The translations under genes were made by a program, and so were the position numbers. From Plumapathes pennacea (lineage: Eukaryota > Cnidaria > Anthozoa > Antipatharia > Myriopathidae), in assembly GCA_964036295.1 (NCBI GenBank), contig OZ038463.1:17099069-17163068 (forward strand): DNA of 64,000 bases. Direction: 5' to 3'. The notes beneath the pieces are model-generated. The model did no database searches and had not been told where the DNA came from. It saw only the letters and a program-made list of their open reading frames with translations. Below are positions 2,986 to 59,300 of the stretch, one piece after another; the stretch's first letter is position 1; each line of letters begins with the position of its first letter.

Positions 2986-4125
2986 ACCTCGTTCCCAGGG
3001 CCATCCGCGGCAGAAGCTCCCGACCAATGACCCTGGTACAGGCTGCAAAATGTACAAGATTCTTGTACATTTCCCCGCTTGGTATCATGGGAAGGTATCT
3101 GATTTTTTTTTTTTTTTTTTCAAAATGGCGGTTTACAATTTCCTGCGTTCTCTGAACTTTTCGGTTCAGGAGTCAGACATATCTGTAAATTTCAAAGTGG
3201 GCCAAGTGCGGGCATTAGAAGCCGTTTATCTGGAGAAGGATGTCCTTGGTGTTCTACCAACAGGATACGGGAGATCGTTAATTTTCCGGTTGATTCCCAA
3301 TTTGATTGCTTTCAAAAAGCACACTGGAATCACCGTAGTGAATAAACAAACAAACATAAATTAACTCATAAATTATTTATTCATGATGTTATGATACCTG
3401 AACCATATTTTACAAACATGGAAGTAAATTAAGTGAAGGTATTTACAATTGCTACCAGGGTGAAGAGAAGGGTCATCCAATAGCAGTTGGTCATCCCAGA
3501 AATGAGAAACACTGCATTTGCAAACGAAAACACTTTTCTTTGCGGACAATCGAAAGTCGCTGTGATATGTCAACAAATCAAGCAACATTGACTCGCAGCT
3601 GATTTCGCACCAAGCGGTATGTGACGCGACTGTAAACTCTGCCCAAATTCGCTGCCGTTTTTATGATTATCGACTCTTATCATTGCAATCTAACTTTCAA
3701 ACATGCTTTTGTAACAGTGTGCAAGGTTTTGAATTGGACTTGAACGGCACTCGCATATGTAAACAGCTTTATTCTCAAAATTACATAAGATGTCGACAAA
3801 CTCACTTGACTCGTCGCTGAAATCATCAGTTCGCGGTCAATTTCCGATTCTTCACCGAAGGATAATTCTTCCACGGCACTATCCAGACCACTAACATTAT
3901 CAGATCCCGGTACTAAAGCCAAACCTTATCAAAATTTAGGATATCGACAATCTTTATCACGCAAAATATGTCGTGCTGTCGCGGAACAACACAACACAAC
4001 ACAACACACCAATCATAAACAATATTTTATTGAGCAGATCGGACCAATCACAGCGCGTGGTAGTTCGGCCTGTACCAGGGTCATTGGTCGGGAGCTTCTG
4101 CCGCGGATGGCCCTGGGAACGAGGT
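2986..4125. mobile_element. 1.1-kb segment bounded by ~58-bp inverted repeats
   Basis: The segment from about 2986 to 3043 (CTCGTTCCCAGGGCCATCC onward, ending CCCTGGTACAGGC) recurs in inverted orientation at about 4068-4125, nearly identical over its length. A related start (CCCAGGGCCATCCGCG) also occurs near 8998, so this is a dispersed family. The interior holds the RecQ-like fragment. No transposase is visible. The bounding repeats could be true termini or two separate MITE copies in opposite orientation. Confidence 0.55.
3125..3343 (+). pseudogene. RecQ-like DNA helicase, N-terminal ATP-binding fragment
   Basis: The frame from ATG 3125 has a helicase pattern: a region leading to KVGQVRALEAVYLEKDVLGV (the Q-motif-like F..GQ..A segment), then LPTGYGRSLIFRLIPNL, which corresponds to helicase motif I (Walker A). 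The expected lysine of G-K-S/T is arginine here (GYGRS), which should impair ATP hydrolysis. The frame loses similarity after about residue 70, and no DEAH box follows in any frame nearby. RecQ-like helicases are multicopy and often decayed in cnidarian genomes. It sits inside the inverted-repeat segment 2986-4125, so transposition is a plausible origin. It could instead be a single first exon with the rest missing. Confidence 0.55.
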
Positions 4126-6460
4126 TGTTGACGTGTGCTTTTATTCCTTGTGTCAGTTCCGGGTTGATCGATTTGAGCGATTTTTCATCTGACAACTCCA
4201 ACTGATGCCTCTGGTCACAACCTTCGCAGGACGAGTGGCGGAATATAGGTTGCGTTCACTCGCTTCACATTTTGGTGGGACTTTCTGCTAAGATGTAAAA
4301 TCCCATCTCTATTCAGGCCGACGACTACATTTCTTTCCTTCTTATCCTTGTTCTTCTACTTTGTCACCTTCATTTGTTTCCTTCTTGTCTTTTTTTTTCT
4401 TTTTTCCTCTTTCTTCTCTCTCGTTCTTTTTCTTGTCTCTTATCCTCACACAGTTTATTTTACTTTCTTTTCTGTCGCACTCAGGTACCTCTATTTGTGT
4501 TTTCTAAGATTTTCGGTCGGATTTTCACACCGATCCAACCCCACTGCCCGGCGGATATTTCACAGGCCGCAAAACAATCCCCGACCCCCACCCTGACCGT
4601 TTGCAGGCTGGGACGACAATCAATGTGATTTGAAATCAGCTCAGTGAAGGTTGAGTTGGACTGTACACACAGCTGTTAGAACCACAAAGAAAGTCGAGAA
4701 ATGAATCTCCACATAGCAAACCGGTTCAGAGAAAATGAACAAATTGCAACACAGGATTCCACTTGATTTTTAATAACAATTTCCAATTTCCAATTCAGTT
4801 CACGTGTGAAAGACCGGCAGAGAAGTGACTATACTGAGACTATACGACTATCACCTTCGCTGAACTTTGGCACGAGTACGGACATATTTTGTGTGAACTG
4901 GCTGCCTATAAACCAGAGTTTTCATTACTGACCTCCACAAGCAGGCTTGTTTACAATTTGCACGGATCAGTGGCCTCACGAGAAAACTACTTCGGTCCTT
5001 ATCTGTTTAATGTGAACGGAGGCCAGCCTCTTCTGAGATAATTAAGCGGAACAGCAAAACCAACATACCTGTAAAGTATCCCGGCGGCGGCTTTTCTGGG
5101 CTTTTCTGGTGTGACATCAAGTTGATCGTTGCTACATGTGCTTAGCTGAAAGACCAAATCGCGGGAGCAATCCAAGTAAAGCTTCATTTAGCCTTACCTC
5201 TTCTTGGCTTTCGAAACAAAGAATTGGAAACTCCTTTCCTCATATCTTTCACTGTTCGCCTGCGGAAATCCGCGCTTACACTGATTTCCAGCATGCACTA
5301 CAGCTTCAGGGATCACATGACACAGAATTAGTGCATTCACTTCCGGGCGGGCCGGTTTTTCCGTCCCTTGTTGACATGGAAAAGTACTTGATAAATCGCT
5401 GGTTTTGGTTGCCGAAATGAAAAACCAATTAGTCAAAGGAATGGCAAAATAAGTAAACTGGTTAAACACAACTAGTAAAGGATTCTCTTGACTTTCGGCG
5501 CAAAACGTAGCTGCGCTATGCCACGGCGTGATGTGACGTGGCGTTATGTGCTGTGCTGTGCTCGTCTCTGTTCTATGTTATCCTCTTGATCAAGTTTGTG
5601 TGCTTTCTGGTCCCTACACTGTTTCAGTCTAATCACTCACCATCGCTTATAAAGGTAGATCACAAACACCAAATCGTCCCTGAAACATGCCAATCTGTGC
5701 GCTGTTGGCATGTGGATAATAAACGCGAGCACATCGTCGATGAAGGTGTTGAACGCCTAAAGGAATGCAAGAGAATAGGACATCAAACTGGTCATCAGCA
5801 TTACCTAAAACTTCCTGGCCGAACTGTCCAATTCTCCACAACATCATCCTTGCCTCCCAACTACACAAATTCTTCTTTAGCAACTACAGCATGTCCACTC
5901 GATCATTTACATAATCTTACAGTGTAATCTTTCCTCGGTTATAATATAATAATAAGCTTAATAATGATACTATCTTTTAGCCAGGGGACTCACGTCACAA
6001 TATGTGATTTTCAGTGCGGCCTCACCTTATACATAAAAGCCCGCCAAGGAAGGTGCGCCACAGACTTCATCTGAAAATCAATCAATCAATTAACTACTAT
6101 GTCAATTGTTCCACGTTCTCTGGAAATAAACCTCAGAGACCAGGATAATCCGCAATCAATCATACATAAAGTTATATCTTAATCAATTGATCAGGCAGTC
6201 GGCAAAGCGATCATTACACGAGACTGGAACGAACTCGGTACGGAGTCATTACACGAGACTGGTATGGAGAACACGTTCCAGAATAACTTTCGATATTCCA
6301 GAATGATAAAATTTGGTTAAGAACAAGTACTACGACTTGATTTATTGCTGAATCACAAACTTTCTGTTCATTTCTTTATCGATGTGCATATTTTTAACCG
6401 AGTCCTAAATGTATTCAGCACACATTTTTTATCGCAAATTTATCCAACACTGCCGAGTCA
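4126..6460. other. Non-coding stretch, no gene recognised
   Basis: Contains a pyrimidine-rich tract (about 4330-4480) and anonymous sequence. A 129-codon plus frame at 5538-5927 overlaps a 78-codon minus frame; neither shows a domain, biased composition or convincing splice context. A LINE-tail-like AATCAATCAATC run occurs near 6080. Confidence 0.4.
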
Positions 6461-7635: not shown

Positions 7636-8850
7636 TTGCTTGTGACGACACAAGCTTTAAATTGGAACGATTTTTATTGCTCGCGGGCGTGGCCCGTCGA
7701 GCTTAAAATCACACGGCGTGTCTTTATCGTCATGTTAGTTTTTTTCTGGGTTACGAATCTGCACACCATGATTGGTTCAGATTATCACGTGATATGCAAT
7801 GACGTAATTGACTTCGTTAAACAACTCGATTGTGGCCAGTGAATTACTCGGTAATTGTGTGTAAAAGTTAACTGCATTTAATCCAAACTCCACCGTTTGC
7901 GGTTTGTGGAACACGCACTGATAAACTGGATGTTAGGGAACAATTTTGGCTTGCGTTCTTTAGTTCACCGCGGAAGCTTCCAGAATAGCCGTAAACAGAT
8001 GTTTGATCAGATACCGCTGGGGGATTGCAAAATATATCTCAGTCGCCGCTAAATATTTAGTCCCGACGAAACTTTCTGTGGCGACACGAAATAGTTCTGG
8101 GAAGGAAACAAGCCGAAAACGGAAACCAAAGCTGCGATGAGCTTTAGCGCAAAACAATGGCGATTTATGCTTTACTCTGCCGACATGACATCTGTTGCCT
8201 CATAAAATTCTTCTGCTTATCGTACATTGCCTGTTGAAATGTTTCTTTCATTCGATCATGTAGCCTTTGTTTCGCAATGGTCATTGTATACCAGAAATGA
8301 AAAATACACCGAAATAGTCCTGAGTATTAAGTTTGCAGTCGCAAATGGACTGAACACACTGTGAACAAAACCGCAATAATATTGTAAACATCTCTCGTGT
8401 GACATTCCTCGCATTCAATTTTATATTTGTTACAGAGCACGAATACTCGAAAGCCTAATAGAAGTGAAACGCATTCAGTTAAAAAACAAGACAGACTAGT
8501 ATTGAAGCGAAGGCTGGATTAATCGTGGCCTCTGATTAGAATTAAGTGTTCGAGGTCAAACTGTCAAAGATTACGCATTACTCAGATTTACTCGGTGGGT
8601 AACCGTTTCGCTTCTAAGCTCAAAATGCAGAGTCGCTCAACCTTTAAGAACCAAGTGTATGAGTGTTGTAATGATAAATTTATAGTTTAATCAGGTTTCA
8701 TTTAAGCAAGGCGTCAAAAGCCAAGTTCTCTATACTGTGAGAAACTGGAAGTCTCCCGGAAATTCCGCTCTTGTCCTTGCTTTCCATTTTAGTTTATTCT
8801 GCTCTCGACCCAACTAACGCCGCGAGCTCACTGGCAACGCCAGTCTAGTT
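7636..8850 (+). mobile_element. Helitron-like non-autonomous unit, copy 1
   Basis: Shares its order of blocks with 20473-22512 (inverted) and 57840-59550: a segment with CTGGGTTACGAAT and TGATTGGTTCA, a block with TTTAGTCCCGACGAAAC and CTGTGGCGACACGAAATA, a block with CATTCGATCATGTAGCC, and an end with CGCGAGCTCACTGGC. The right end is a short hairpin (ACTGGC-AAC-GCCAGT) directly followed by CTAG and then T. That resembles the 3' end of Helitron/Helentron elements. No helicase gene is present in the unit. Confidence 0.5.
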
Positions 8851-24464: not shown

Positions 24465-24608
24465 TGTTTTAATCAATCAATCAATCAATCAACCTTTATT
24501 TATACACGATAAAAGTTTAAAGCTACAGCTTGTGTGGTCGTGTGAGTAAATTTTCTGGACTAAAATGCATTAAAATAAGTAACGTTAGTATCTCCAATCA
24601 TAATAATG

Positions 24609-24697
<89 letters not shown>

Positions 24698-24698
24698 A

Positions 24699-24788
<90 letters not shown>

Positions 24789-26566
24789 GTAATAATAACA
24801 ATAATAATATTGATAATAATAATTTCCTTTAGATACTAATAATCAAACCTAATTTACTGGTAAAATAAAACGATAAAAGATTCCCCCTTATTCTTTTCTT
24901 TACTAAATTTAATACTGGTAAGTATGCCCCCCCTCCCCCAACAGTGAAAACTAAGACATAAAAACTACTTTTTACGGTATTTTATAAATATGCAAAATCG
25001 GCTGCCCTATTATTTGCCGTTTGGGCCGAGGTCACATTAAAAGTAAAATTCTTAAAATCTGATGTCTTTACGGCTTCCGTTAAAAATGCCTTGGTGTTGC
25101 CCGACTTAATGTTCTTGCATTTGTTGGCAATGTTGTTTCACAGCACGGCGCCTCTGTGTTGTATAGAGTGCTTCATAGTGTTCGTGTTGTATCGTGGTGT
25201 GTTCAGTTGGTGTGGTTTTCGTAGGGAGTACTTTGTTTGGCGCTTTTCGATCATTGTTGTCATACAGGCAGGCGTAATGCCGTTATATATCTTGTGAATC
25301 AGTTTCAGCAAGGCCAGCTTATATTGAGTGTAGATGGATTTCCAGTTTGTTCGGAGTAGGACTTCGTGGGAGGGGGTGTCCATAGGTATCTTATATATGA
25401 TTCTGGCTGCTCTGCGATGTAGCGCTTCAACCGAGTTGAATGCGTTCATACAGTTGCATCCCCCCCATACTACAAGACCATAAGTGATAGATGGCATGAT
25501 GATTTTCATATATAGCTGTTCCAGTACTCCTTTCGGCAGGAAGCGGGAGCGTTTGAGTACGTTTAGTTTACCGGCAAGGCTTTTCTTGGTATCGTGCACG
25601 TGGCGTCCCCAAGTGAGTCTATTGTCAATGTTAAGGCCCATTAGTCGTGAGTGGGTGACCCATTTGATGATTGTGCCGCCGATACTAACCGGTGCGAGTG
25701 GGCCGACAAAGGTGCCCCTGTGGAGGAGCATTGCTTTGCATTTAACTGGGTGTGGTGTGAGCGTATTTGCTATACACCACGAATACAATTCATTGAGTGC
25801 TTCATTGAGGGAGATGGTGACATCATCTACAGTCTTGCCAATGCAATATAACGTTGTGTCATCAGTATACATGTATGTAGTACCTGACTTTACGCTGGCT
25901 GGAAGATCATTGGTGTAGAGTGTAAATAGGGTTGGTCCGAGGACTAATCCCTGGGGGATACCATGCGTGACTGGTTCCACTGTTGATTTTTTGCCGTTTA
26001 TGACGGTGAATTGTTTTCTGCCATTCAGGTAACTTTTTAACCAATCGAGAAGCGGGCCGTTTATGCCAAACTTGCGTTGTAGCTTTTGGATCAGCATAGG
26101 GTGGGATACGCTGTCGAAGGCCTTTTTAAAGTCTACAAATACTACACCCACAACGCGTCCCAGGTCTACTTCCTTTCTCCAAGTTTCTGTCAAGTGCGCA
26201 AGTAGTAATTCCGTTGTGTACCCTCGACGATAGGCCCCATTGTTTGTCCGTTATTAATTCATTGTGCATGACGTGGTTTACTATTATGTCAGAGACGCAG
26301 GATTCAAGGATCTTGCTTGGCACGCTTAGTATTGACAGTGGTCGGTAATTATTCATATCTGTTTCGTCGTGTTTCTTGTATACCGGTGTTAATCTGGCCG
26401 TCTTCCAGCTGTCGTATACTGTTAGCGTTCTCAGGCTCGAGGTGTAAAGGGAATGTAACGGGGGTACAATAGCATCGCCGGCAAGTTTTATCAGTTTCGC
26501 TGGGATACCCTCAGGTCCTGTTGATTTGTTTGGTTTAAGTAGGTTTACTTTCTTGCGTATCTGAGC
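24465..26566 (-). mobile_element. 5'-truncated CR1/RTE-like LINE inserted in CLPTM1L
   Basis: On the minus strand the element reads from a truncated reverse transcriptase (from 26566) to a 3' region with a long ATT array and a terminal GATT-type tail (plus strand AATCAATCAATC at 24473-24500). Both ends abut copies of the same ~210-bp host segment, which is the arrangement of a target-site duplication, though an unusually long one. Confidence 0.75.
24601..24835. repeat. (AAT)n microsatellite
   Basis: About 230 bp of nearly pure AAT/ATA/TAA triplets inside the LINE 3' region. Long Asn, Ile and Leu frames here are artefacts of the repeat. Confidence 0.95.
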
Positions 26567-34911: not shown

Positions 34912-35822
34912 GTTTCTTGGTAGTTTTGTTCTTGTTCTTGTTTTAACCTGCAAACAGCAGATTTGGCTCTCCGCCTTCCGAGGTATTTCTCTATATCAAA
35001 TTGATGTAGTGTTTAAAACAGCGCAGCTCTCTTGTTCAAGATGGCGGACACGTCTTCATCAATGAAAGTTTGCAATGAGTTATGGGATTTTGAATCCTGA
35101 TTGGCTGGACAAGATGACGTCCGATATCAGTGTAAGCCAAAAGCGGAGAAAATGATAAAAATGGCCAGTTTTGGGAGTCCGTACTATAGAAAAAATCTAG
35201 AAAATTCTCAGAGGAATTGTATGGGAAAGTTCGCTGGGTGGCAAGTCTTAGAGATGCAATCCAAGTACAAACACTCTTAATTTTGGCGATTTGAATATGC
35301 TATCATTGTATGCTTAATAATGTTAAACTGCGTTTTTCATCTCTGAAGATCATATTGCCCTTAGACGTCATTTGACGGTGACTAAGTCACGTGAAAAGCG
35401 TTGTAAAAGGTCTCACTACACTAAGTTGACTACGCTATAACTCAATATACATTTCAAGGTGTATTTTGGAAGTTGCAACCAAGAAAACTGACTTCAAAAT
35501 AATAAATGTACCCAGATGTAAAAATGAACAAATAAGATCTCAAGTGCATTTCTGCAACAGTATTTGACCGTGGTATTCGAATTATTCCAAGCCTTGATAT
35601 TGAATAATTTCCCTGGCATCAAACTCATTGTAGATTCCCCGCCCAACACCATGTTGGGTTTTATTATGGCAAAAGTTTATCTGTATTGTTTGCAACATAA
35701 TATTTGCTTTTGAATATTACGGGCAACCAACAACGCGAAATACAATTTTCAGCAACCTTATGGCGTCACAAGTGATGTTAGATGACGGCGCCCGGAAAAT
35801 CCAAATGCGTCTTGAATCGGAC

Positions 35823-36106
35823 TGTTACGGCTAATCCAGGAATTCAAGCGTCGCGCCAAGTCTTTTTGTTAATTAGTCGTTTTGTTTCGCTCTTTTGTTT
35901 TCAACTTTTAGTATGCAAATGCGAAAGTAAATATTGTACTGCAAGCGTATTTTCTTTCACTTTTCACCGGAGCTCAACGCGAGTAAGTACACTTCGTTTT
36001 TCCTTTTCCTGCTTTTTTGCGCAATCGTAACTGTATTATTTGCTGTTCTAGTTGAATCGTATCACGTATATCTTCGCAATGCCATTAAAGTGAAAAGTCT
36101 GGAACA
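35823..36106 (+). repeat. 5' LTR of the BEL/Pao element
   Basis: Begins TGTTACGGCTAATCCAGG, ends GTCTGGAACA, matching 55622-55905. TG...CA ends and length define it. The gag start lies only 24 bases downstream, leaving a short leader. Confidence 0.92.
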
Positions 36107-36129
36107 CAACATTCAATCGCGAAATTTGA

Positions 36130-38390: not shown

Positions 38391-38795
38391 ATCAGCCCCC
38401 AATGCGCATTTTCAGCCCTTATGATCTTAATTAACGCTACTTTCTTACGAGACAAGCCCCGTCGAAGCCATCATAACGGCATACCGCAAGATCGTGAATT
38501 CTGCCTTTTGTTTTCCCGCGCGATAAATTCCATCTCGCTAACACATTTGGGGAATTGTAGAAGAGAGCAATTACGATCCATTTGCCTTTCGCACATTTTT
38601 GGCATTCTCTTCTATACACAACCTTAATTGTTAAGGTTTTATCATGTGCAAATTCCGTCAACATTGTTTGTGGTCCCGTATTATGTGTATGTGTTACGTC
38701 TTACTTTTTGCAGGCTTTTTTCTGAAACTAAGCTGGAACAGTCTAATAGTCGGCTTTGCAATGCGTGGCTTCAGTGCACCTGAAAAACTCCCAGT

Positions 38796-39631
38796 ATGAC
38801 GCTAAACGCCCTATCTCTGAATATTAGAGGTCTCAACAACCAAGTTAAAAGAAGAAAATTGTTCAGGTGGCTTCACCAAGGCAAGTATGACATTATTTTT
38901 CTGCAAGAAACCTACAGCGATGAAAGCATAGAAAATTTATGGCGAAATGAGTGGGGAGGTTCCATCCTGTTTTCTCACGGTTCTAAACACAGTAGAGGCG
39001 TTATGACCTTATTTAAGCCGACCTTAGATGTGATTTCCATCAACAGTATCACAGATAAAAATGGCAGATCACTGATTGTTAGTGCAACCGTCAACCAAGA
39101 AGAATTATGCCTGGTTAACATCTATGCACCAAATGACCAAAATCAACAAATCATTTTTTTAAACCAGCTGCTACCAACCCTACGACAATTCTCCGCCCAT
39201 AAAACCCTGATTGGTGGAGATTTCAACTGTCCTCTCTCAGCTATTGATAAATTTGGCGGAAAGAGCGTAGAAAGTAAAAAAAACGTCATTCAAGCGATTC
39301 AAAATCTTTGCAAAACTCTCGATCTAGTCGATGTTTGGCGAAAACAACATCAAGCGGAAGTAAGATTCACCTGGAATGATAGCTCGGGAAAAATAAAATG
39401 TAGATTAGACTATTGGCTAATTTCAAAACAGCTTTTACACGCTGTACAAGGTTCCGATATAAAAGCATATTATGATTCAGACCACTGTCCCATAATGATC
39501 AAAATTAGACACGAAGAATTAAAGGAGAACAGAGGACCAGGATTTTGGAAGTTCAACAACTCACTTTTGGAAGATAACGATTTTGTCACTAAGTTATGCT
39601 TCATTATAAGATATGCCATAGAAAAGCACAA
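38796..39631 (+). pseudogene. LINE ORF2, endonuclease part (interrupted)
   Basis: From ATG 38796 the frame gives an AP-type endonuclease: LNIRGLNNQVKRRKL (N of the first motif), IIFLQETYSDES (catalytic E), HSRGVMTLF, ...LVNIYAPND, LIGGDFNCPLS (GDFN), VDVWRKQH, RFTWNDSSGKIKCRLDYWLI, and SDHCPIMIK (the SDH motif). All key residues are present. The frame is cut at 39631 by the TIR element; the last few residues up to the stop at 39668 are encoded by the inserted terminal repeat. The rest of ORF2 resumes at 47168. Confidence 0.9.
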
Positions 39632-39667
39632 AAGGCGTTCCAAAGTAATTTCGATTTTTCCAAAGTA
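39632..39667 (+). repeat. Left terminal inverted repeat
   Basis: 36 bp, identical to the reverse complement of 47128-47163. Holds two TTCCAAAGTA motifs. Confidence 0.9.
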
Positions 39668-40147
39668 GGCTATTTCACAGTTATTCCGTCAATATCGACC
39701 ACTTTTCAAGATGTTGGATAAAACAGTCCGTCAAAAACAGACATTCAAGCATTCTTAAAAGTTTGAGGTCTGTTTGTATGTAAAAACGGACTGATTTGAC
39801 GAAATCGTCAACATTTTTGCTAGCTGAAAGCAGTCAGTTTTGGAGGCACCAATATTATCAAGCACAACAGTAGTTTAAATACATCACTTTATTGTCAAGT
39901 CAAAATTCAGAGCAAAGTTCTTCTAAAAATCTACCCCAAAAACCTGCATTCTGTTGAGCAGTACAATTTAATATTATTTTTCGGCAGCGAAAGGCTGGAT
40001 TTTGGGGGTATTAACTCGCAGTCCACTCATCACAAACCTTTTGCTAGGATATTACGTCAGATTGACTGCTTTACTCCGTGTGGTTTGCGCACTTATGTTT
40101 TTGCCCATAAGTGGTCACCAAAAACGACCATCATTTTGCCTACATTA

Positions 40148-41300
40148 GGTCTGGCGAACTTCTAAGCGCCAAATTACGTTTAATAGACTTCTAAATTCGA
40201 AATTACGTCGGACGGACTTTGAGTTACAAAAGACGTCCGATGCACTTTCAAATCCCACTTCTTGTCGGACTTATAAATCCAAACTTACGTCCGACGGATT
40301 TCATGTTCTAATTTACGTCGGACGGACTTCTAAATGCCAAATTACGTCTGACGGATTTCATGTTCTAATTTACGTCGGACGGACTTCTAAGTGCCAAATT
40401 ACGTCCGACGGACTTCATGCTCTAATTTACGTCGGACGGACTTCTAAGTGCCAAATTACGTCCGACGGACTTCTAAATGCCAAATTACGTCCGACGGACT
40501 TCATGTTCTAATTTACGTCGGACGGATTTCTAAATGCCAAATTACGTCTGACGGACTTCATGTTCTAATTTACGTCGGACGGACTTCTAAATGCCAAATT
40601 ACGTCCGACGGACTTCATGCTCTAATTTACGTCGGACGGACTTCTAAATGCCAAATTACGTCTGACGGACTTCATGTTCTAATTTACGTCGGACGGACTT
40701 CTAAATGCCAAATTACGTCGGACGGACTTCATGCTCTAAATTACGTCGGACGGACTTCTAAGTCCTGCATTACGTCCGACGGACTTCATGTTCTAATTAC
40801 GTCGGACGGACTTCTAAGTGCCAAATTACGTCCGACGGACTTCATGCTCTAATTTACGTCGGACGGACTTCTAAATGCCAAGTTACGTCTGACGGACTTC
40901 ATGTTCTAATTTACGTCGGACGGACTTCTAAATGCCAAATTACGTCCGACGAACTTCATGCTCTAATTTACGTCGGACGGACTTCTAAGTCCTAAATTAC
41001 GTCCGACGGACTTCTAAGTCCTACATTACGTCCGACGGACTTCATGCTCTTATTTACGTCCATCAGAATTCTAACTTAGAAGTGCTAAGTCCCAAATTAC
41101 GTCCGACGGACATTATGTTCTAATTTACATCTGACGGACTACATTTTGTGCTCCAAAGTACGTCTTACGAACTTCCAAGTCCAAAGTTACGTCTGACGTA
41201 TTTCTAGGTCCCAAATTACGTCTGAAGGACTTCTGACCCCAATTTACGTCTGACGGACTTTTAAGTCAGTCCCAAATTACGTTTGATAATCTTCTAAGTC
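40148..41300 (+). repeat. Array A: ~57-bp dimeric satellite
   Basis: About twenty dimers made of a ~29-bp unit (ACGTCGGACGGACTTCTAAR) and a ~28-bp unit (ACGTCCGACGGACTTCATGY). Both share RACGGACTT; the central base pair alternates between CGGAC and CCGAC. Units become degenerate at both edges. The 134-codon frame at 40448-40852 is a translation of the array and not a gene. Confidence 0.93.
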
Positions 41301-41374
41301 GTAAATTGCATCCAGTGGATTCTAAGGTCTCATTACGGTATCACCGCACCCCTCCCCGCCCCCCACTCTCCCCT

Positions 41375-41391
41375 GGGGGGGGGGGGGGGGG
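41375..41391. repeat. G homopolymer
   Basis: Seventeen G in a row next to a C-rich stretch at the right border of array A. Likely to be misread in sequencing. Confidence 0.85.
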
Positions 41392-43508
41392 TGATACCCG
41401 ATATAAAACACACTGAAGTCTAAAATCAAGTGCTTAGTGTACTTTAGACCTGAGCCCTGCGTGATAAGACTCGACAGGACTCACACTTCAAGCGCCGTGC
41501 TGCTGCTGTGTGAAAATGAACTCGACATTTGGCACGGCGTGCTCTACGGCAGGCCGGCTCAATTCATAAACTATGAACTACAAAATGTATTTGGCCGTAG
41601 CACGTATGAAACAACTGCCTGCAGTGGCACGACGTTTGAGAATGGGGCTTATAGGCCTGAGGAAGCCGTTCTGGCAATACTACCATTCCTTGTTTAGCTG
41701 TTATATAAATTGCAAACAGTAATAACATCGAACGTATGATCGGTTCGAAGACAAACGAATACGTACACTAATAGCACTTTCCCACCTATCTTTCTTCATC
41801 TCCAATCTTGTGCTCGCCGAAACCCGCTGTATGAGGATTACAAGTACTTCAACTTGGAGCCAGCAGTATCATACCCTGCGAGCAGAACCTTCTTCACTCT
41901 CTGCCAGCAGGGTAGCAGTATCACAGTTCGATCTTGAATGACTTGATATCCTGGAAGTCCCTTGTTATACTTTGGCTAGAGATAAACATCACAAAAGTAG
42001 ACTTGAGAACGTGACTCTGAAGAACATACAATTCCTTGGTACCAAAAAGCAAAGGAAAGATCGAGATAATACAAGTAAACGTACCTTGAATCGATTCCAG
42101 CCATCGGACGTGAAAAAGCCGTTTAGTTTAGAAAATGTCCGCCAAAACGTGAAGCTCTCATTGGCTTACGCGTGACATGTGACCTTTGAAGTAGTTCCCA
42201 GTCAAGACCGGGCGATATTTGAACCAACGGTTATTTCTACGATCAAAGTCCATCGAGAAGGAGGCGCTCCGTTAAAGTTTTGGTGTATTGCTGTTTAACG
42301 ATGTAACCTAAATGGATAGAAGTGAACAGAATCGTGATACATTCTTGTGGCGAAGATACTGCCGATCCGCTATTTGAAGCATTGTGTTGTGTTCGAACGG
42401 AGAAGAAGACAACGTGGCGGATTATAGAGGAAGCTTACACGTCGGTTAGAAGGAAGCAGACGTTTCAAGGACGGCTCTTGAAAGTACAGCTGATGTTTGT
42501 TAGGTAAGTACTTGTAAATGATTTTTACTTATACGATTTGCATAGCGAAGTGCCAAGGCACTGGACGAAATATACATTTATTGTACGTATGCTTGAGTTA
42601 GTTTGAGCCGTTTTGCCCCTCAACGCTTTGGATGACTTCGAATGTTGCTGAAACGAGCGAACGCTTCGGTTGACTTGTTGTTGAAATGAGCAACCGCTTC
42701 GAATACTGCAACTCTCAAGGGGATCGATAGGGAATATGTCAGAATATTAAAGGTCCGAGCATGAATCAGGCTAGTTGTTACAGTGAGATTATTTCAAAGT
42801 TCCACTGTGGGAATGTTCTTACAGCGTTGTGTTGGCATTTTGGTTCACAGTTTTGAAAAGCCATACATACAGCAGCTCATGTGTTGAAACACCCGGACAA
42901 ATATCAAGTCTTTAATATCTTGCCAATCTGTAGTTGTCTGTTCAGTCCACCTTGAGATTTAAAACCAGCCTAACAAAATATATTCTGACTGAGGATGTGG
43001 GTGTGTGAAAGCTGGATGCCATAACAAATTAAAGGTGAAATGTTGAGTGCTCTTTGACAGGTCAAGTCTTGCTCCAACTTGCACTCGAAATGTCAGCTTT
43101 TAAATTCCAGCTTTCACACATCACCATTTTCTCGATTGGTCATACTGTACAGTCAAACCTCTATTAAGTGGTCAACCTTGGGAATAGCCAACTGTCTGCT
43201 AATAGAGGTCAAGTTCACAGTATAAAAAGTATGGGGAGTGATTTCTGGGACTGTGATAAGTGACTGCTGAAAAGAGGGCCAAATAAGACTGTATATACTG
43301 TAAAATTGACCAATCTTGATGTGAACAATGACATCTTATTGTACCGTATATGTGCAATACATGTATCATGTGTCATGTATCATTATATGGTTGTTGTGTT
43401 GGTGGTTATTGTGTCATGTATCATTATATATGCAGTACATGTATCATGTGCCATTATATGGTTGTTATCTGTGTTAATAAACATCCCTGGTTGGTAATTT
43501 TCCTTAAG

Positions 43509-45093
43509 GATGTGAAGTTGGATGGAGCAGACTTTGCCCTCTTTTTACAAAGGCTCAAAAACAAGCAGGATGGGCAGGTTGCAGGGCCCTCAACTGAAGC
43601 TGAGGGATTCGATGACAAGATTTCATGTGGTGAGAATGTAATCACCATAATCAGGCAGGAAAGCCGACAACTTTCCAGAGGAAATGTAGCATTCTTTGCT
43701 GAGAGTGGAGGGTGTGCATTGTCAGTTTTTACCCTGGATGTTATGGAGGTAAGAATGCAAGGTAATGCCATGCATGTATGGATAATGGGAAATGACAGAA
43801 CATTCATGCTTTAATTATCAGGGTGCACTGAAAGAGAAAATAGTGTTTGTAGAGATATACACTCTTGTCACAACCAAAAACAATTCAAGGGTTTACCTGC
43901 TTTGTATTCTCAAACTCGTAACATTTGGCCAGCAATTCAGGAGAAGAGGGAAGAGAGGTTGTATGTTTTAAAATAAAAAAAAAATGGCCCAGCTGTTAGT
44001 CCTCTCATCCCCAAATTGCAAACTAGTTGTTGAAATATTGGTATGGTTTATGTTTTGTGTGCTAAGTGTATTTACCTTTCTTAACTTTTAGGATTTGGTC
44101 AGGCAAGTGGAGGAAGTGGTGGAGTCAACTAAGAAAATAAACTTCACCCTGAGGAATCGTTTCAACTGTTTTTTTTTGGCGACGTGGCCAAGGCATTCGA
44201 AGTCATTGCTGTAGTGAAGAGAAGTGGTGCCACACCAAAAGTTGAGTACGTTCACGTACCAGTAACAGCTGATTCTGGTAAGAAATCCAAATTTATAATA
44301 TATTTGGAGAATACCTTAACATGCATGCTTATAACTTCTTTGGATATTTCATCCCCTGAACTGCCCACTGTGTTCCATACAGTGTACAGTACCTTTAACA
44401 ACCCATTTTCTTTTTCTCTTGCTTGCTGCTCTGCTTGGCTTTTGAATGTTGTACATTGTCCAAATAAACTGGGTAATAACATGAGCATTTTTCAACAGAT
44501 TGAATTCCAAGCAGGCTTTTGACCCTCTCAACTTCGTATTCTTATGACCTTGTTTTGTTCTAACCAGGGAGCTCACAAGGAATGCAGGAATCCATATGGG
44601 CTTTTGTGGTGGCACATTTCTCTTTCTCTGGGAGTATTCTCCTGGAGCAAGTGAACTTTGCCACCACGGAAAGCAAGGCCAACTTTTTTACAGTGCTAGC
44701 ATTACAATCCCTGGCAGTGTGGATGTGGATTGTTGGGCACTTCAGCAAAGTGGGAGACACTTTGCTGGATGTTGGCTCGGAGAATGGTAAGATAAATTGT
44801 TATAAATGCTTTCTACGTGTGAACGCTTTGTAATTGAATGATTATCACTGAAGCTACATGTACAGTACGTGATAAAAATATCACAAATGTTCTGTCACCT
44901 TACAGATTGCAACGCTTAAACTTTTGCTTTTTTTGTAAATTGATTTTATTCTTGATCTTACTTTGTAGGTGTCGTGTCTGCTGCGTCAGTGTTATCGGAA
45001 AGGAACTGCGTGGCAGTCGTCAAGCCGCATAAGACGTCTGCCGTCAGTGAAGAGATCCAGAAGACGTTAAAGAACAGGTCAAGAAAGCTTTAG
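43509..45093 (+). CDS. Spliced gene with a C-terminal methyltransferase-like motif
   Basis: Four exons fit: 43509-43748, 44092-44277, 44568-44786, 44969-45093 (stop TAG), all with GT-AG borders and compatible phases. The last two encode WMWIVGHFSKVGDTLLDVGS, then ENGVVSAASVLSERNCVAVV and a basic tail. This fits the pattern 'fs..GD.vLD...G.Gt...AA..lgRn.v.v' at the C-terminus of beta-class N4-cytosine/N6-adenine DNA methyltransferases (motifs X and I, SAM binding). The GSGT residues are changed to GSEN, and I see no DPPY/DPPW motif IV, so activity is doubtful. Exon 2 needs one extra T in the nine-T run at 44169-44177 for the phases to work. The start is unresolved; a candidate exon 42322-42503 (donor AG|GTAAGT) is in the wrong phase. 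A different SAM-dependent family (for example DOT1-like) is possible. Confidence 0.45.
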
Positions 45094-45239
45094 TAGCTTT
45101 TAATGCATGACATTAGGTCCGCCACGGAATTCTGTGTGACATAATATCTCCATTCTTACTCCCGAACCAATTTTTTGCCTTAAAACGAACGGGAACGCCT
45201 GCAATGCAGGCTAGACTTTAGTCCTTAGATTTTACATGT

Positions 45240-46870
45240 AGATTACGTCCGACGGACTTAAATTTTCAACTGGACGATATTTGGTCATTTTGGCGGACCT
45301 TAGATTTGAATTACGTCCGACGGACTTGGAGATTTTCTTAACTAATACAGTGTGTGTTATGACGGACTTTTGTGATTACGTCCGACGGACTTAGATTTTC
45401 AAGTGGACGATATTTGGTCATTTTGGCGGACCTTAGGTTTGAATTACGTCCGACGGACTTGGAGATTTTCTTGTCTAATACAGTGTGTGTTATGACGGAC
45501 TTTTGTGATTACGTCCGACGGACTTAGATTTTCAAGTGAACGATATCTGGTCATTTTGGCGGACCTTACGTTTGAATTACGTCCGACGGACTTGGAGATT
45601 TTCTTGTCTAATACTGTGTGTGTTATGACGGACTTTTGTGATTACGTCCGACGGACTTAGATTTTCAAGTGGACGATATTTGGTCATTTTGGCGGATCTT
45701 AGATTTGAATTACGTCCGACGGACTGGCAGATTTTCTTGTCTAATACAGTGTGTTTTGGCGGACTTTTGTGATTACGTCCGACGGACTTAGATTTTCAAG
45801 TGGATGATATTTGGTCATTTTGGCGGACCTTAGATTTGAGTTACGTCCGACGTACTTGAAGATTTTCTTGTCTAATACAGTGTGTTAGGACAGACTTTTG
45901 TGATTACGTCCGACGGACTTAGATTTTCAAGTGGATGATATTTGGTCATTTTGGCGGACCTTAGAATTGAATTACGTCCGACGGACTGGCAGATTTTCTT
46001 GTCTAATACAGTGTGTGTTTGGCGGACTTTTTTGATTACGTCCGACGGACTTTGATTTTCAAGTGGACCATCTTTGGTCATTTTGGCGGACCTTAGATTT
46101 AAATTACGTCCGACGGACTTGGAGATTTTCTTGTCTAATACAGTGTGTTGTGACGGACTTTTGTGATTACGTCCGACGGACTTAGATTTTCAAGTGGACG
46201 ATATTTGGTCATTTTGGCGGACCTTAGATGTGAATTACGTCCGACGGACTTGGAGATTTTCTTGTCTAATACAGTGTGTGTTTTGACGGACTTTTGTGAT
46301 TACGTCCGACGGACTTAGATTTTCAAATGGATGATATTTGGTCATTTTGGCGGACCTTAGGTTTGAATTACGTCCGACGGACTGGCAGATTTTCTTGTCT
46401 AATACAGTGTGTGCTTTGGCGGACTTTTGTGATTACGTCCGACGGACTTAGATTTTCAACTGGACGATATTTGGTCATTTTGGCGGACCTTAGGTTTGAA
46501 TTACGTCCGACGGACTTGGAGATTTTCTTGTCTAATACAGTGTTTTGGCGGACTTTTGTGATTACGTCCGACGGACTTAGATTTTCAAGTGGACGATATT
46601 TGGTCATTTTGGCGGACCTTAGGTTTGAATTACGTCCGACGGACTTGGAGATTTTCTTGTCTAATACAGTGTTTTGGCGGACTTTTGTGATTACGTCCGA
46701 CGGACTTAGATTTTCAAGTGGATGATATTTGGTCATTTTGGCGGACCTTAGGTTTGAATTACGTCCGACGGCCTTTTGTGATTACGTCCAACGGACTTAG
46801 ATTTTTAAGTGGACGATATTTGGTTGTTTTGGCGGACCTTAGATTTGAGTTACGTCCGACGTACTTGAAG
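45240..46870 (+). repeat. Array B: ~133-bp satellite
   Basis: About twelve units, each with two copies of ACGTCCGACGGACTT, separated by TTTTCAAGTGGACGATATTT, GGTCATTTTGGCGGACCTTA and TTTTCTTGTCTAATACAGTG. Spacing between equivalent points is about 133 bp, with shorter variants toward the right. It shares only the GTCCGACGGAC core with array A. Frames at 46327-46725 and 46368-46736 are artefacts of the array. Confidence 0.93.
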
Positions 46871-47127
46871 ATTTTCTTGTCAACATAGTGTGTATTTTGA
46901 CATGTTAAAGCAATAAACAATGTTTCATTTCGAAGGCTTGTGTGAGTGAGTCTGGCGACCTTCTGCTTTCCCCCCTATATCCTTTCCAAAACACATACAT
47001 TTTGGAGACCTGCTTTTTATGGTCCGTCAAAAACAGCAGTCCTAACACTTCTTCATCTCATCCCTATTCTTTTTGCTGAAAACAGCCCTTTTTGACGTAA
47101 AAACCCCGAACGTTGGCCAGAGAATTT

Positions 47128-47163
47128 TACTTTGGAAAAATCGAAATTACTTTGGAACGCCTT
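47128..47163 (-). repeat. Right terminal inverted repeat
   Basis: 36 bp, reverse complement of 39632-39667. Followed by ACAAA, matching the left flank. Confidence 0.9.
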
Positions 47164-47167
47164 ACAA

Positions 47168-50057
47168 AAGCACCCCTGATAAAAGATTATATTGGGAAAT
47201 GCTTAAAATGGAAATCCGTACCTTCACAATTCGATACGCCAAAGAAAAAGCAAAACAGAAGAGGACACGGGAATTAGATCTCCTCCAAAAGTTCAATCAT
47301 CTAAAAGTTCGTATTGACCAAGACCCGAATAATGACGCACTCTTTAAGGAATCGGAAGAACTAAGAATTAAGCTAGACAAAATAGCAATTCAAAACACAA
47401 GAGGTTCCATTGTAAGAAGCAGAGTGAGATGGTATGAACTCGGAGAAAAAAGCAACAAATATTTTCTGAATATGGAAAAAAGAAGTTACAATAAGCGTCA
47501 TATAGTAAAACTCAAATTATCGAACGGTATGATTACTGATGATCCTAAAGTCATTCGAACCGAAATGAAGAACTTTTATAACGACTTGTATACTTCACAT
47601 GTTCCATCGCCGGAGGCATCTACTTCTTTCTTAGAATCGCAAAACATCCCTGTCTTAGACAGCGATTCACAAAGTAAATGCGAAGGTCTCCTAACCGAAG
47701 AAGAGTGCTTATCAGCGCTTAAATCGTGCGCAAAAAACAAAACACCGGGGACAGACGGGTTAACAGCTGAATTCTACCTACACTTTTGGAACGAGATCTC
47801 GAGTCCTCTGGTTGAAAGCCTTAACACGTCTGTTACAGCCGGTGAACTGTCGATTTCACAAAAGCAAGGTATCATCTCCTTGATCCCCAAAAAGAACAAA
47901 GACCCTCTTAGCCTTGGAAACTGGCGTCCCATCTCTCTACTAAACGTCGATTACAAGCTGGCCACAAAGTGTATCGCCAAACGGCTAGAGAAGGTGCTTC
48001 CGCTCTTAATTTCTCCTGACCAAACCGGCTACGTTAAAGGTAGATTTATTGGAGAAAACATACGACTAATCTCGGATATAATTGAAACGCATGAAACTGA
48101 GAATAAGCATGGAATGATATTCTTTCTCGATTTCGAAAAAGCTTTTGACTCTTTGGAATGGAACTACCTCTTTAGCGTGCTCCGAAAAATGAATTTTGGG
48201 CCAAGTTTCTGCAGATGGATCCAAACTTTTTACACTGACATATCGAGCTGCGTCATCAACAACGGCTTCACTTCCGAGTTCTTCTCCTTACGCAGAGGAG
48301 TCAGACAGGGATGTCCCCTCTCGGGGTTACTTTTTGTTTTGGCAGTAGAACCTCTCGCCATTCAAATCAGGACGTGTAAAGAGATCGCAGGACTTGAAAT
48401 TGGGCATAAGACTGCAAAAATAGCAATGTATGCGGACGATACTACAACCTTTGTTCGTGATGATCACTCGGCAATTGTATTATTTCGCCTCCTCGATCAT
48501 TTTAGTACTTTTTCGGGCCTCAAAATCAACAAAGGAAAAACGGAGGGTTTATGGCTTGGACCCTATAAAAGAAGACTAGGAACGGTTAACCCCTATGGAA
48601 TATTATGGCCCCAGAATTACATTATATCGCTTGGGATAGCGTTCGCATACGATCCCAGCTCTGCCAACAAAATTAACTTTGACCAGCAAATTTTGAAACT
48701 TCAGAAAGTTCTTACTCATTGGTCCCCAAGACACCTGTCTATTGTAGGGAGAATAACTATTGTTAAGACCTTGGCGCTGTCTAAACTTATTTATGTCTCC
48801 TCCGTTCTGGATGTTCCAGACAACTACATCAAGGAGGCCAACAAGAGCATTTTTTCTTTCATTTGGAATTTTAAGCCCGACAAAATTAAAAGAGGAACGC
48901 TGGTTGCTCCTATTAGTAAGGGCGGCCTAAATATGGTCAACTTTCACGATGTGGAAAGGTCTCTAAAAGCTGCTTGGGTGCGCCGCATCTGCAACGCAGC
49001 CTGCAGCACGTGGTCGGTCCTGGTCATGTCCAAATTAAGCAAGTTTGGAGGTACTCTCCTGTTTCAATGCAATTTCGATACAAAATTATTAGAGTTAAGA
49101 GATCTGCCAGTCTTTTACAAAAAAATATTGACGACGTGGCAAGAATTGTACTCAAAAACACCACACCTCGCGGAAGAATATAGGCAAGAGATCATTTGGA
49201 ACAACCGCTTCTTACGAATTGATGGAAAGTCTTTCTTTTTTAAGTCATGGTACGACAAAGGAATTTTAAGAGTTCAAGACCTCTTGGACTCGAACAATCA
49301 ATTTTTGACATTTAAGGACTTTACGGACAAATTCTGTATAAGTACGACATTTTTAGGTTATGCTGGTATAATTGCGGCCATTCCCAAACTTTGGAAAGAC
49401 GCGATTCGTAGTGGTACTTCATTCACCAATAATCAGGAACGCGCGGCAACTAATAAGGTCGTAACGCCCAAAAAGATCCGCCTACTGCTTGCTGAGAAGT
49501 CTTTTTTTCCGCCCGTTGTAGAACGCTACCTGGAAGAACAAAAACTGAAGCCAAAAGAAGTTTATGAACTCCCTTTCAAGATTACTATAGAAAATAATCT
49601 AAGGAGCTTCCAGTTTAAGCTAACACATAATCTAATACCGACAAATCAGCTGCTCTTCAATATAAAAATCAAAACCTCACACAATTGTGAGCGCTGTGAG
49701 AGCCCGAATGAAACAATTTCACATATTTTCTACGACTGCTGCAAAGTCAGTGCGTTATGGAAACTAGTTATCCAATGGTGGAACAGAAAGCGATTGGAGA
49801 ACATGAACCCAAACCGAAATGAAATACTTTACGGCTACAAGCCAGAATACCCACATTATTACGCGTTTAACCACTTCCTGCTGATAGCGAAATATTACAT
49901 ACACCTTGCGCGAATCAAATCTGAACTATTGAACATAAACGTTTTCCTCGCACTACTTCAAAGCAAGATTCAATCAGAAAAAGAAATCGCCGTCAGAAAT
50001 AATGCCTACGAAACTTACAAAAATAAATGGACCACGCTTTCAAATTGCGACTTTTAG
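47168..50057 (+). pseudogene. LINE ORF2, reverse transcriptase part
   Basis: The open frame runs from 47073, but host LINE sequence starts only after the terminal repeat at about 47168. It reads WEMLKMEIRTFTIRYAKEKA (the linker), GSIVRSRVRWYELGEKSNKY, KTPGTDGLTAEFYLHFW, LGNWRPISLLNVDYKLATKC, MIFFLDFEKAFDSLEW (motif A), RRGVRQGCPLSGLLFVLAVE (motif B), IAMYADDTTTF (motif C, catalytic YADD), and GLKINKGKTEGLWLG. Near the C-terminus CERCESPNETISHIFYDC is the cysteine-histidine motif of L1/Tx1-clade LINEs. The frame is open for over 960 codons, so this half is undamaged. The protein is inactive because the endonuclease half lies 7.5 kb upstream. Confidence 0.93.
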
Positions 50058-55610: not shown

Positions 55611-55621
55611 TGGGGCCGGAA
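55611..55621 (+). promoter_or_regulatory. Putative polypurine tract
   Basis: GGGGCCGGAA sits directly before the 3' LTR at the position where plus-strand priming occurs in LTR elements. It is short and interrupted by CC, so the call rests mainly on position. Confidence 0.4.
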
Positions 55622-55905
55622 TGTTACGGCTAATCCAGGAATTCAAGCGTCGCGCCAAGTCTTTTTGTTAATTAGTCGTTTTGTTTCGCTCTTTTGTTTT
55701 CAACTTTTAGTATGCAAATGCGAAAGTAAATATTGTACTGCAAGCTTATTTTCTTTCACTTTTCACCGGAGCTCAACGAGAGTAAGTACACTTCGTTTTT
55801 CCTTTTCCTACTTTTTTGCGCAATCGTAACTGTATTATTTGCTGTTCTATTTGAATCGTGTCACGTGTATCTTCGCAATGCAATTAAAGTGAAAAGTCTG
55901 GAACA
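55622..55905 (+). repeat. 3' LTR of the BEL/Pao element
   Basis: Same length and ends as the 5' LTR with about seven differences. Followed by the CGGAC target duplication. Confidence 0.92.
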
Positions 55906-56391
55906 CGGACCATCGATGACATCCGGTATACAATTCACGAAAATTTAAACTCAGTGATAGATCGATACGGAGCGTTTGAGAACAAGTGGTATTCTTTTTT
56001 CTGAAGGATCCTTTTAACATGTGCAAACTAAAGCTGTTTTGACTTCTAAAATACACTTTTATATGCTTATTGAGCTGGCCCTACGTGGTTTTAACTCACA
56101 CTCAGAAAAGAACTTAGATGTCGAAAAAGTTAAAAGTTGAGAAACATTTAGGGGAACCTGGCTGGTTAGAGCATTTAGTTCTCAAGGGCTTCGTTCTGGT
56201 TGGCAGGTTGGACCGGAATCTCTATAGTCTTAACTTTTGTACTGCTGCTGCTTGAGAACTGACACAGACCAAAAATCTGGGTCTTCTTAGCGTTCCACTT
56301 TTCTTTTACCTATTAAAAAAGGGACCGTATCATAGCCACACTAACCTATAGATTACATACTCTTTGACAGTGATATCATATTTGAAATTAC

Positions 56392-59300
56392 CTTTGGATC
56401 ACTTTGACCGTGGCAAACTAGGATGAGAAATCCCTGAAAATATCAAAGGAAGATACACAAATGGAAAAGGATGAGCAGTTTCTGTGGTGCAAAAATTAAA
56501 AAGGGGATTATGGGAAACATAATTAAAATATTACAATTAACACAGTCACTCTAATACGTCTGCAATGATGTTTTCAAGACCTGGCTAAGTTCACAAGACC
56601 GTGTTTATATCTAACCCTTTCATTCGTACGTTCAAAATACAGGTTCTCCCAACCTTTCAAGAAGAAAATATATGAGTGATGTAGAGAGAACTTATAGTTA
56701 AATTAGCTTTCATTCGCGCAAGGTATTAAAAGCCAAGTTTTCTTTACTGTATGATATATTCCTTGTGAGAAAACTGAAGGAGAAAGTTGAAGTTGATCAT
56801 TCTTGGGAGTTAAAGGGTTAATTTATACGTTACACAACACAAATAGTTTTGCTTCAAAAAATGTTCTGTTTTCTTCATTTTATAATAATGGTTTACCTGC
56901 ATGGAGTTCAGCACAGTGAAGATATAGTCGAACTCGATCCCAAGCCCTGCAAGCCTCAGCAGTCCAAAAACCCACGTGATACCAAGCAACGGAAATAGAA
57001 TGACACAGGACCTGGCGCAGCGCCTAAAATGGACAAGACAAGAATCCAATAAAGGTGTTATGACCGCACAATTTACGCTATTTTACAGAATAAAGGTAAT
57101 ATGCTAATATACAAGGGAAGAATGACAGAGAAGCAACTGTGTATGTGTCGTGATGTACTTTATAACAACATAAGGGTGCAAATAAAAAGTAGGAAAGCAA
57201 ATAGTTAGAAAGTAAAAATGAAGATGAGAATTTTAGCGAAAAAAATTATCTATTTGAAGGACCACGTTTGTGTGCAATAAAAGGAAGAGTAATAAAGTAA
57301 TAAAGTCAATAAATATAAATTGTGCGCAGTGCATGTTTACAGAGCCTGATGCAAACACTCGAGTGAGTTTGGGAGAACTCGAAATTTGTGTGAACCTTAG
57401 CAACCGCGCGATATTTATATTGTTTATTAAATAAACGTGCTCCAGATCAGTATAACACACTTTCTATGTTACATAGCCTCATGCAAACACTGCTGGGAAC
57501 CAATCAGAGCGCGCGCTCATAAAATATTGTTTTTACCACTCGAATATATAATTCATGTCTTCGCGCCGTCGTGTAATATTCTCTTTATATAAGTATTATT
57601 ATGCTGGGCCTAAGGGCCCAGCATATAATTGTTTTCACCCCAAAAACACAGCGTAGGTATCATGACAATTGGTAAAATAAGTCCCACCTCTTGGATTTTG
57701 AATTTTGATTGACGTGTGAGCAGAAATACTATATTTTGATTGGATAATGTTCACGTGCAAGTGGCGTGAAAGCTTTTTTTTTTTCTTGGCTGAGTTTCAA
57801 AGTATGTAACGTGAGATTTTTGTTGACGTATACTTGCGCTCTTGCGGTTTTTGTTCATTGCTCGTGGCGAAGCCGACGAGCTTAGGATTGGAAAGCGTGT
57901 CTTTATCATCGTCATATTTTTATTTTTATTTTTTTTTCTGGGTTACGAATCAGCACACGGTGATTGGTTCATATTTTCACGTGATTTATGATGACGTCTT
58001 GTCATCACATGACTTGCCGGGCGAGCAGTTTCGCCATTTTAAAGGAGATATGTGGGCGATAGAATTGTGCTTTGAGAATAGCCGTAAACAAATATTTGAT
58101 GGTACCGCTGTCGCCGATAAATATTTAGTCCCGACGAAACTTTCTGTGGCGACACGAAATACTTTTGGGAAGATAACAGGGCGAAAGCAGAAACCAAAGC
58201 TACGGTGAGCTTTAGCCGTAAAACAATGACGCTTTATGCTTTACTCTGTACATGACATCTGTTGCCTCATAAAATTCTTCTGCGTATCGTACATTGCCTG
58301 TTGAAGTGTTTCTTTCATTCGATCATGTAGCCTTTGTTTCGCAATGGTCAGTGAATACCAGAAATGAAAAATACACCGAAATAATTCTGAGGATTGAGTT
58401 TGCAGTCACAAATGGACTGAACACACTGCGAACAAAAGCGCAATAATATCGTAAACATCTCTCGTGTGACATTCCTCGCTGTCAATTTTATATTTGTTAC
58501 AGAGCACGAATACTCGAAAGCCTGATAGAAAAAACGCATTGAGTTAATAAAAGGAAACACATAAGTAGTGAAGCGAAAAAGTAAACTGCATGCCATTCAA
58601 ATTCAACGCCATTTGGCTCTGTGGAATGCGCACGGATAAACTGGATTTTAGGAAAAGATTTTGGCTCGCGTTCACCGCACAAGCTTTGAGAATAGCCGTA
58701 AACAAATGTTTGATGGTACTTCTGGGGTATTGCAAATATCTCTGTCGCCGATAAGTATTTAGTCCCGACGAAACTTTCTGTGGCGACACGAAATACTTTT
58801 GGGAAGATAACAGGGCGAAAACAGAAACCAAAGCTACGGTGAGCTTTAGCCGTAAAACAATGACGCTTTATGCTTTACTCTGTACATGACATCTGTTGCC
58901 TCATAAAATTCTTCTGCGTATCGCGTACATTGCCTGTTGAAGTGTTTCTTTCATTCGATCATGTAGTCTTTGTTTCGCAATGTTCATTAAATACCAGAAA
59001 TGAAAAATACACCTAAATAATTCTGAGGATTGAGTTTGCAGTCACAAATGGACTGAACACACTGTGAACAAAAGCGCAATAATATTGTAAACATCTCTCG
59101 TGTGACATTCCTCGCTTTCAATTTTATATTTGTTACAGGGCAGGAATACTCGAAAGCCTGATAGAAGAAACGTATTGAGTTAACAAAAGAAAACACATAA
59201 GTAGTGAAGCGAAGGCTGGATTAATCGTGGCCTCTGATTAGAAATATGAGTCAAGGTCAAACTGTCATAATCGATTGTGCATAAAAAGATATGTCACGCA

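Follow-up and report, generated by a model that had tools for sequence, protein, structure and literature searches.

What is a 7.5-kb segment that has the ends of a transposon, two long satellite-like arrays, a methyltransferase-like gene and no recognisable transposase, and how does it move? The segment in question, positions 39632-47163, lies in a stretch of 64,000 nucleotides of the antipatharian Plumapathes pennacea (assembly GCA_964036295.1, contig OZ038463.1, positions 17,099,069 to 17,163,068 of the forward strand), which is the whole DNA analysed here and is called the window. We find that the segment is one insertion into the open reading frame (ORF) of a long interspersed nuclear element (LINE) and a single mobile unit of a multicopy family. 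The window copy is probably a young non-autonomous derivative, served in trans by a transposase of the DUF7869 type; the link to DUF7869 comes from one copy of the family, L039.

A precise insertion and a recently spread family

The perfect terminal inverted repeats (TIRs) of 36 bp, whose sequence starts AAGGCGTTCC, occupy exactly the coordinates given in the initial annotation (Table 1). The target-site duplication described there as 4-5 bp is present on both sides as ACAA, and its length is 4 bp. The LINE ORF is interrupted precisely, as had been claimed: after removal of the element and one ACAA the reading frame extends over 1,246 codons and contains a single stop codon. A 200-bp query made of the joined flanks returned 17 rows, namely 13 other loci, the two flanks of the window itself and two pieces of one LINE copy that is interrupted at a different point from the window LINE. 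The 13 loci carry the empty site; they match 198-200 of the 200 bases at 95-100% identity, two of them at 100%. Fixed inverted termini, a duplication of fixed length and a precise empty site, the marks of a cut-and-paste TIR transposon, are thus all found. Missed at first reading was that the host LINE itself sits in a BEL/Pao retrotransposon, recognised by 290-bp long terminal repeat segments (35818-36107 and 55617-55906, 97% alike) and a Peptidase_A17 match. The TIR element lies in the LINE and the LINE in the retrotransposon (35818-55906), and the whole is therefore a nest of three levels.

The genome (290 Mb, 24 contigs) was searched with the first 30 bases of the terminus, a check that the initial annotation had called for. 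There are 28 matches at up to three mismatches (26 exact, two with one mismatch) and none for the reversed control. They pair into ten two-ended copies of 7.5 to 15.5 kb, and eight further copies are one-ended. An exact 4-bp duplication flanks nine of the ten two-ended copies (ACAA, AGTT, TTAA, ATAT, AGCT, ACAT, TTAC, ATAC and TTTA); in the tenth, L039, the flanks read TGGC/TGGT. A terminus unique to this locus, copies ending at other points, or arrays and gene at the syntenic locus without terminal repeats would each speak against a mobile unit. We find instead a multicopy family with defined ends, and 13 LINE copies in which the site is empty.

Eight of the ten two-ended copies measure 7.5-7.9 kb. 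The seven others of this size share with the window copy long interior blocks that are 93.8-96.5% identical, and in the gene region outside the exons the eight differ by about 0.8% from their consensus. These eight copies are young, and the family has recently spread. Flanks are common to L052 and L053 and to L049 and L050, so some one-ended copies are duplicated segments and not separate insertions. L056 is a more diverged relative (79% identity over about 1.2 kb). Three two-ended copies lie within 0.7 Mb of each other on G000:C2 (17.14, 17.82 and 17.83 Mb), of which two share an orientation and are separated by 5 kb; local hopping is a possible cause of this clustering. We met no earlier account of the element in the literature searched, which mostly left out subscription papers and did not include Repbase.

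Subterminal arrays on one 17-bp core

Two arrays of different period, 57 and 133 bp, share one CpG-rich core, as first noticed, and both are constant parts of all ten two-ended copies. The core is TTACGTC(C/G)GACGGACTT, 17 bp, for example TTACGTCCGACGGACTT. At up to three mismatches the window copy has 33 cores on the left and 26 on the right, 59 on the plus strand and one on the minus strand, and the two arrays have the same orientation. Core number varies among copies, from 14 to 39 on the left (nine copies, leaving out L046, where the left array is displaced by an insertion) and from 5 to 32 on the right (ten copies); the lowest count, 5, is that of L039, in which the right array is interrupted. 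Genome-wide there are 305 exact matches to the core and 0 to the control, and the first 100 of these places are all at eight loci of this transposon family. The two arrays have observed/expected CpG ratios of 1.89 and 1.60, against 0.95 outside the element and 0.67 in its middle. The element is thereby a clean case of asymmetric, same-orientation arrays built on a single core, and it offers a way to study the part played by such arrays in transposition.

By analogy, the core may be bound by the transposase or by a helper protein, like the CACTA subterminal repeats to which TNPA binds (PMC2613891; for this and the other papers cited, comparisons hold for the parts of the text available). Among CACTA/EnSpm elements, such as En/Spm and soybean Tgmt*, copies with internal deletions are moved in trans, and the subterminal regions hold asymmetric short repeats, GC-rich in part and in En/Spm bound by TNPA (PMC2613891). 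The present element resembles them in its many short repeats beside the TIRs, asymmetric between the ends, and differs in that its TIR does not read CACTA and its duplication is 4 bp rather than 3 bp (PMC2613891). Tandem repeats near the ends are likewise described for foldback-like elements whose TIRs are internally repeated, Galileo (PMC3573991, PMC4168063) and Tetris (PMC4079207). In Galileo, however, they lie within long inverted repeats, whereas here the two arrays, of different period, share one orientation and the TIR is just 36 bp.

A candidate transposase in a sibling copy

The absence of a recognisable transposase from the window copy, part of the initial annotation, held up: neither ten of the larger ORFs outside the arrays nor the spliced gene gives a Pfam match above the cut-off, and no transposase appears among the weak rows for these ORFs. 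Nor does the window copy give a credible match with P0001, a DUF7869 protein of 680 residues from the coral Montipora foliosa, used as tblastn query. Comparison of interiors, proposed as a way to an autonomous copy, succeeded in part. It revealed a sibling, overlooked at first, that carries a gene of the DDE type with a DUF7869 domain; this gene is damaged, and we found no intact autonomous copy in the genome. The sibling, L039, is 10.1 kb long and keeps both TIRs and both arrays, most of the window-type interior being replaced by the DUF7869 gene. The gene lies on the minus strand and is nearly complete; its eight blocks all fall between residues 92 and 674 of P0001, and the frame changes once near its 3' end. 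One piece matches PF25273 (8.9e-34), and some 45 bp separate the stop codon from the left array. There is an abrupt change at L039:5414, beyond which come the window gene's last exon and then the right array. Within that array lie 3.9 kb foreign to the window type, the first kilobase of which is a repeat found elsewhere.

A coral DUF7869 protein is predicted by modelling to have an integrase/Mos1-like DDE core of DD38E spacing, with the three acidic residues in place. Three DUF7869 proteins searched up to E 10 match PF25273 and no other Pfam transposase model; the other rows, Cor1 (0.15) and ATP_bind_1 (0.022), are below the cut-off and are not transposases. Given that the window copy shows no transposase, that L039 carries a DUF7869 gene between the same ends and that a DUF7869 protein has a predicted DDE core, the window copy is probably non-autonomous and moved by DUF7869. 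The DUF7869 protein would be the DDE transposase of the family, cutting at the TIRs, and copies of the window type would depend on transposase made elsewhere. The ancestor would have carried two genes read divergently: DUF7869, reverse, on the left side and the methyltransferase-like gene, forward, on the right. From it L039 and the window type would have arisen, each through an internal deletion of its own. A two-gene ancestor of this kind is the simplest history. Domains of the DUF7869 type occur in many animals, in charophyte algae and in a liverwort, and the word DUF7869 is absent from the literature text searched. A widespread domain of unknown function would in this way be connected with an actual transposon that was active recently and has known ends, so that the role of the domain can be put to the test.

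Is DUF7869 a member of a described superfamily? Like Kolobok, the present element has a 4-bp duplication and termini of the form 5'-RR...YY-3', and some Kolobok lineages have accessory genes (PMC9587614). Unlike Kolobok, which is described as TTAA-specific, with 3-5 bp in some KolobokP (PMC9587614), only one of its ten two-ended copies is at TTAA, the target of both Kolobok and piggyBac. The C/DxxH motif that hAT, P, MuDR, Kolobok and Dada have between the second D and the E (PMC9587614) is present in none of 34 DUF7869 rows. The same 34 rows lack the CxxC found at this place, together with HxxH, in EnSpm/CACTA, Mirage, Chapaev and Transib (PMC12730594), which sets DUF7869 apart from the signature of that group. 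Sola2 has TIRs and a 4-bp duplication, and Sola2 derivatives are described in which the transposase gene is mostly deleted and another gene is present instead (PMC3627910). The Sola2 families described there have AT-rich duplications and TIRs of 12-21 bp, unlike the mixed duplications and 36-bp TIRs found here; the 4-bp duplication alone is compatible with Sola2, which was compared by its published description.

The methyltransferase-like gene and rival histories

Four exons can be joined by canonical splice sites (Table 1). An upstream ORF, 42307-42506, had been proposed as the first exon; the obvious splice sites do not connect it in frame with the others. The spliced gene described earlier, with a SAM-binding-like (S-adenosylmethionine) C-terminus, is present; in the window copy it is frameshifted in one exon, and its SAM loop is degenerate. 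The four exons are open throughout in two of eight copies, L037 and L038, and the remaining six, the window's included, have a frameshift, a stop or a deletion. Substitution rates at codon positions 1, 2 and 3 (1.35, 1.13 and 1.08%) are not lower than outside the exons (0.80%), and the ratio of nonsynonymous to synonymous change between copies is 0.78, from 47 and 18 changes. On these comparisons the gene shows no sign of purifying selection.

Even at E 10 the spliced gene matches nothing in Pfam. A profile built from four proteins (the L038 copy included), searched against PDB up to E 10, gave one match, the putative bacterial modification methylase 2zie (E 0.96), in an alignment that spans the SAM-binding strand and is motif-I-like. 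The sequence of the SAM loop is not conserved even among paralogues. None of the eight copies has the catalytic motif (D/N/S)PP(Y/F/W) in its translation, which covers the four joined exons, short of the 5' part of the gene, and is uninterrupted in L037 and L038 alone. The methylase resemblance is real enough to note, and an active DNA-modifying enzyme seems unlikely from the sequences. Fungal TET/JBP elements are also DNA transposons with a gene resembling a DNA-modifying enzyme (PMC12730594), and they differ from the present case, in which the gene is degenerate and without sign of purifying selection. Cargo that looks like a DNA-modifying enzyme can thus turn out to be a degenerate relic, and the gene would be a passenger or a catalytically dead helper rather than a DNA modifier.

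That the gene is a captured host gene fragment, a Pack-type passenger with no role in transposition, has close to an even chance; this concerns the gene only and is compatible with a window copy moved by DUF7869. It fits the decay of the gene without visible selection and the existence of distant paralogues at four other loci, L057-L060 (29-35% identity), which share the last part of the gene; at three of the four the exons come in the same order. On the other side, a close parent outside the family did not appear: among 72 search rows, all matches better than E 1e-4 are at family loci. Moreover, L039 keeps the last exon, and the gene is therefore older than the split of the L039 and window types. 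No homologue of the window gene was found in the protein database at E<=1 among 652 candidates, and a profile of the paralogues found one, P0060, the single-sequence fold of which is useless (predicted local distance difference test score, pLDDT, 35). The paralogues at L059 and L060 are near-identical and lie on different contigs, which suggests a recent duplication or another mobile carrier.

Two observations weigh against DUF7869 as the transposase of the family. Only one copy bears it, in a gene cut at its N-terminal side exactly at the junction, and DUF7869 is multicopy in the genome (30 rows, counted exon by exon), so pieces of it are available for capture. The transposon may accordingly be moved by an unrelated transposase, L039 having gained its DUF7869 piece from another element during gap repair. 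We consider this unlikely, as no other transposase was seen among the ten ORFs searched between the arrays of the window copy, the other 7.5-7.9-kb copies have the same interior, the transposase-like ORFs of L046 and L056 sit in stretches absent from other copies, and the DUF7869 stop codon just inside the left array fits an integral gene. Around the DUF7869 loci L061 and L062 no TIRs were found in the parts scanned, the copy-number edges of L061 being set by other repeats, and within 100 kb of the other DUF7869 places the same 13-base terminus did not turn up (none among 35 hits). More doubtful still is a broader proposal, that DUF7869 proteins are the transposases of a DDE superfamily not yet described (DD38E, DNC-ENKN...GHTHED signature, 4-bp duplications), whose autonomous elements would pair the transposase gene divergently with one for a catalytically dead, N6-methylase-like protein, a helper that binds the CpG-rich arrays sequence-specifically, resembles TNPA and is of independent origin.

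The extra length of L046 was considered as the autonomous form and rejected; L046 holds stretches absent from other copies, one of which has an integrase-like ORF below the Pfam cut-off. L046 also holds a repeat-coding ORF of the QREQRLNANQKLQEKKR type (8470-8784), in DNA common to L054 and L055, two loci bearing ends of this family, and to the DUF7869 locus L061 (3833-4133); it may belong to an autonomous form since lost, or be an element in its own right. In L056 the plus-strand stretch 3188-4499 includes an ORF resembling a replication-associated protein (PF23343, E 0.005, below the cut-off). Its neighbour, which we take to have a P-loop-like motif, gives no Pfam match, and another ORF nearby looks by eye like a Tc1/mariner transposase.

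Least credible is the initial suggestion that the element brings along an active DNA methyltransferase which acts on the CpG-rich arrays and so marks or protects its ends: the CpG-rich arrays, the 2zie alignment and the two open copies speak for it, and we reject it on the frameshift, the selection data, the degenerate SAM loop, the Pfam and PDB profile searches and the missing catalytic motif. An enzyme of the N4/N6 type, the type resembled, would moreover not produce 5-methyl-CpG.

Table 1. Positions in the window of the element, its parts and the interrupted LINE
Feature	Position	Strand	Basis
Left target-site duplication, ACAA	39628..39631	.	identical 4-bp flanks; empty site in 13 other LINE copies
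Left TIR, 36 bp, perfect	39632..39667	+	28 ends genome-wide
Left subterminal array, 57-bp period made of two ~28.5-bp units	40200..41300	+	repeat analysis; 33 cores in left 2.2 kb
Exon, open in window copy	43509..43748	+	splice sites and frame
Next exon, frame broken at poly-T run in window copy; in frame in L037, L038, L045	44092..44277	+	copy comparison
Next exon, start of motif-I-like region (WIVGHFSKVGDTLLDVGSENG)	44568..44786	+	profile alignment
Last exon; 3' three quarters retained in L039 beside DUF7869 gene	44969..45094	+	copy comparison
Right subterminal array, 133-bp period made of two 65-68-bp units	45241..46866	+	repeat analysis; 26 cores in right 2.5 kb
Right TIR, 36 bp, perfect	47128..47163	-	terminus search and TIR comparison
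Right target-site duplication, ACAA	47164..47167	.	identical 4-bp flanks
LINE ORF (endonuclease, reverse transcriptase, zf-RVT), split by element	38784..50057	+	Pfam matches and reading frame

Elsewhere in the window, 76 AAT copies form a trinucleotide array of 228 bp (24596-24823), and a reverse transcriptase fragment of another retroelement lies on the minus strand at 25138-26250 (RVT_1, E 5.5e-24). A direct duplication of about 480 bp at 58103-59213 has a spacing of 634-636 bp, and further matches to this repeat lie at 7.8-8.9 kb and 20.5-22.4 kb.
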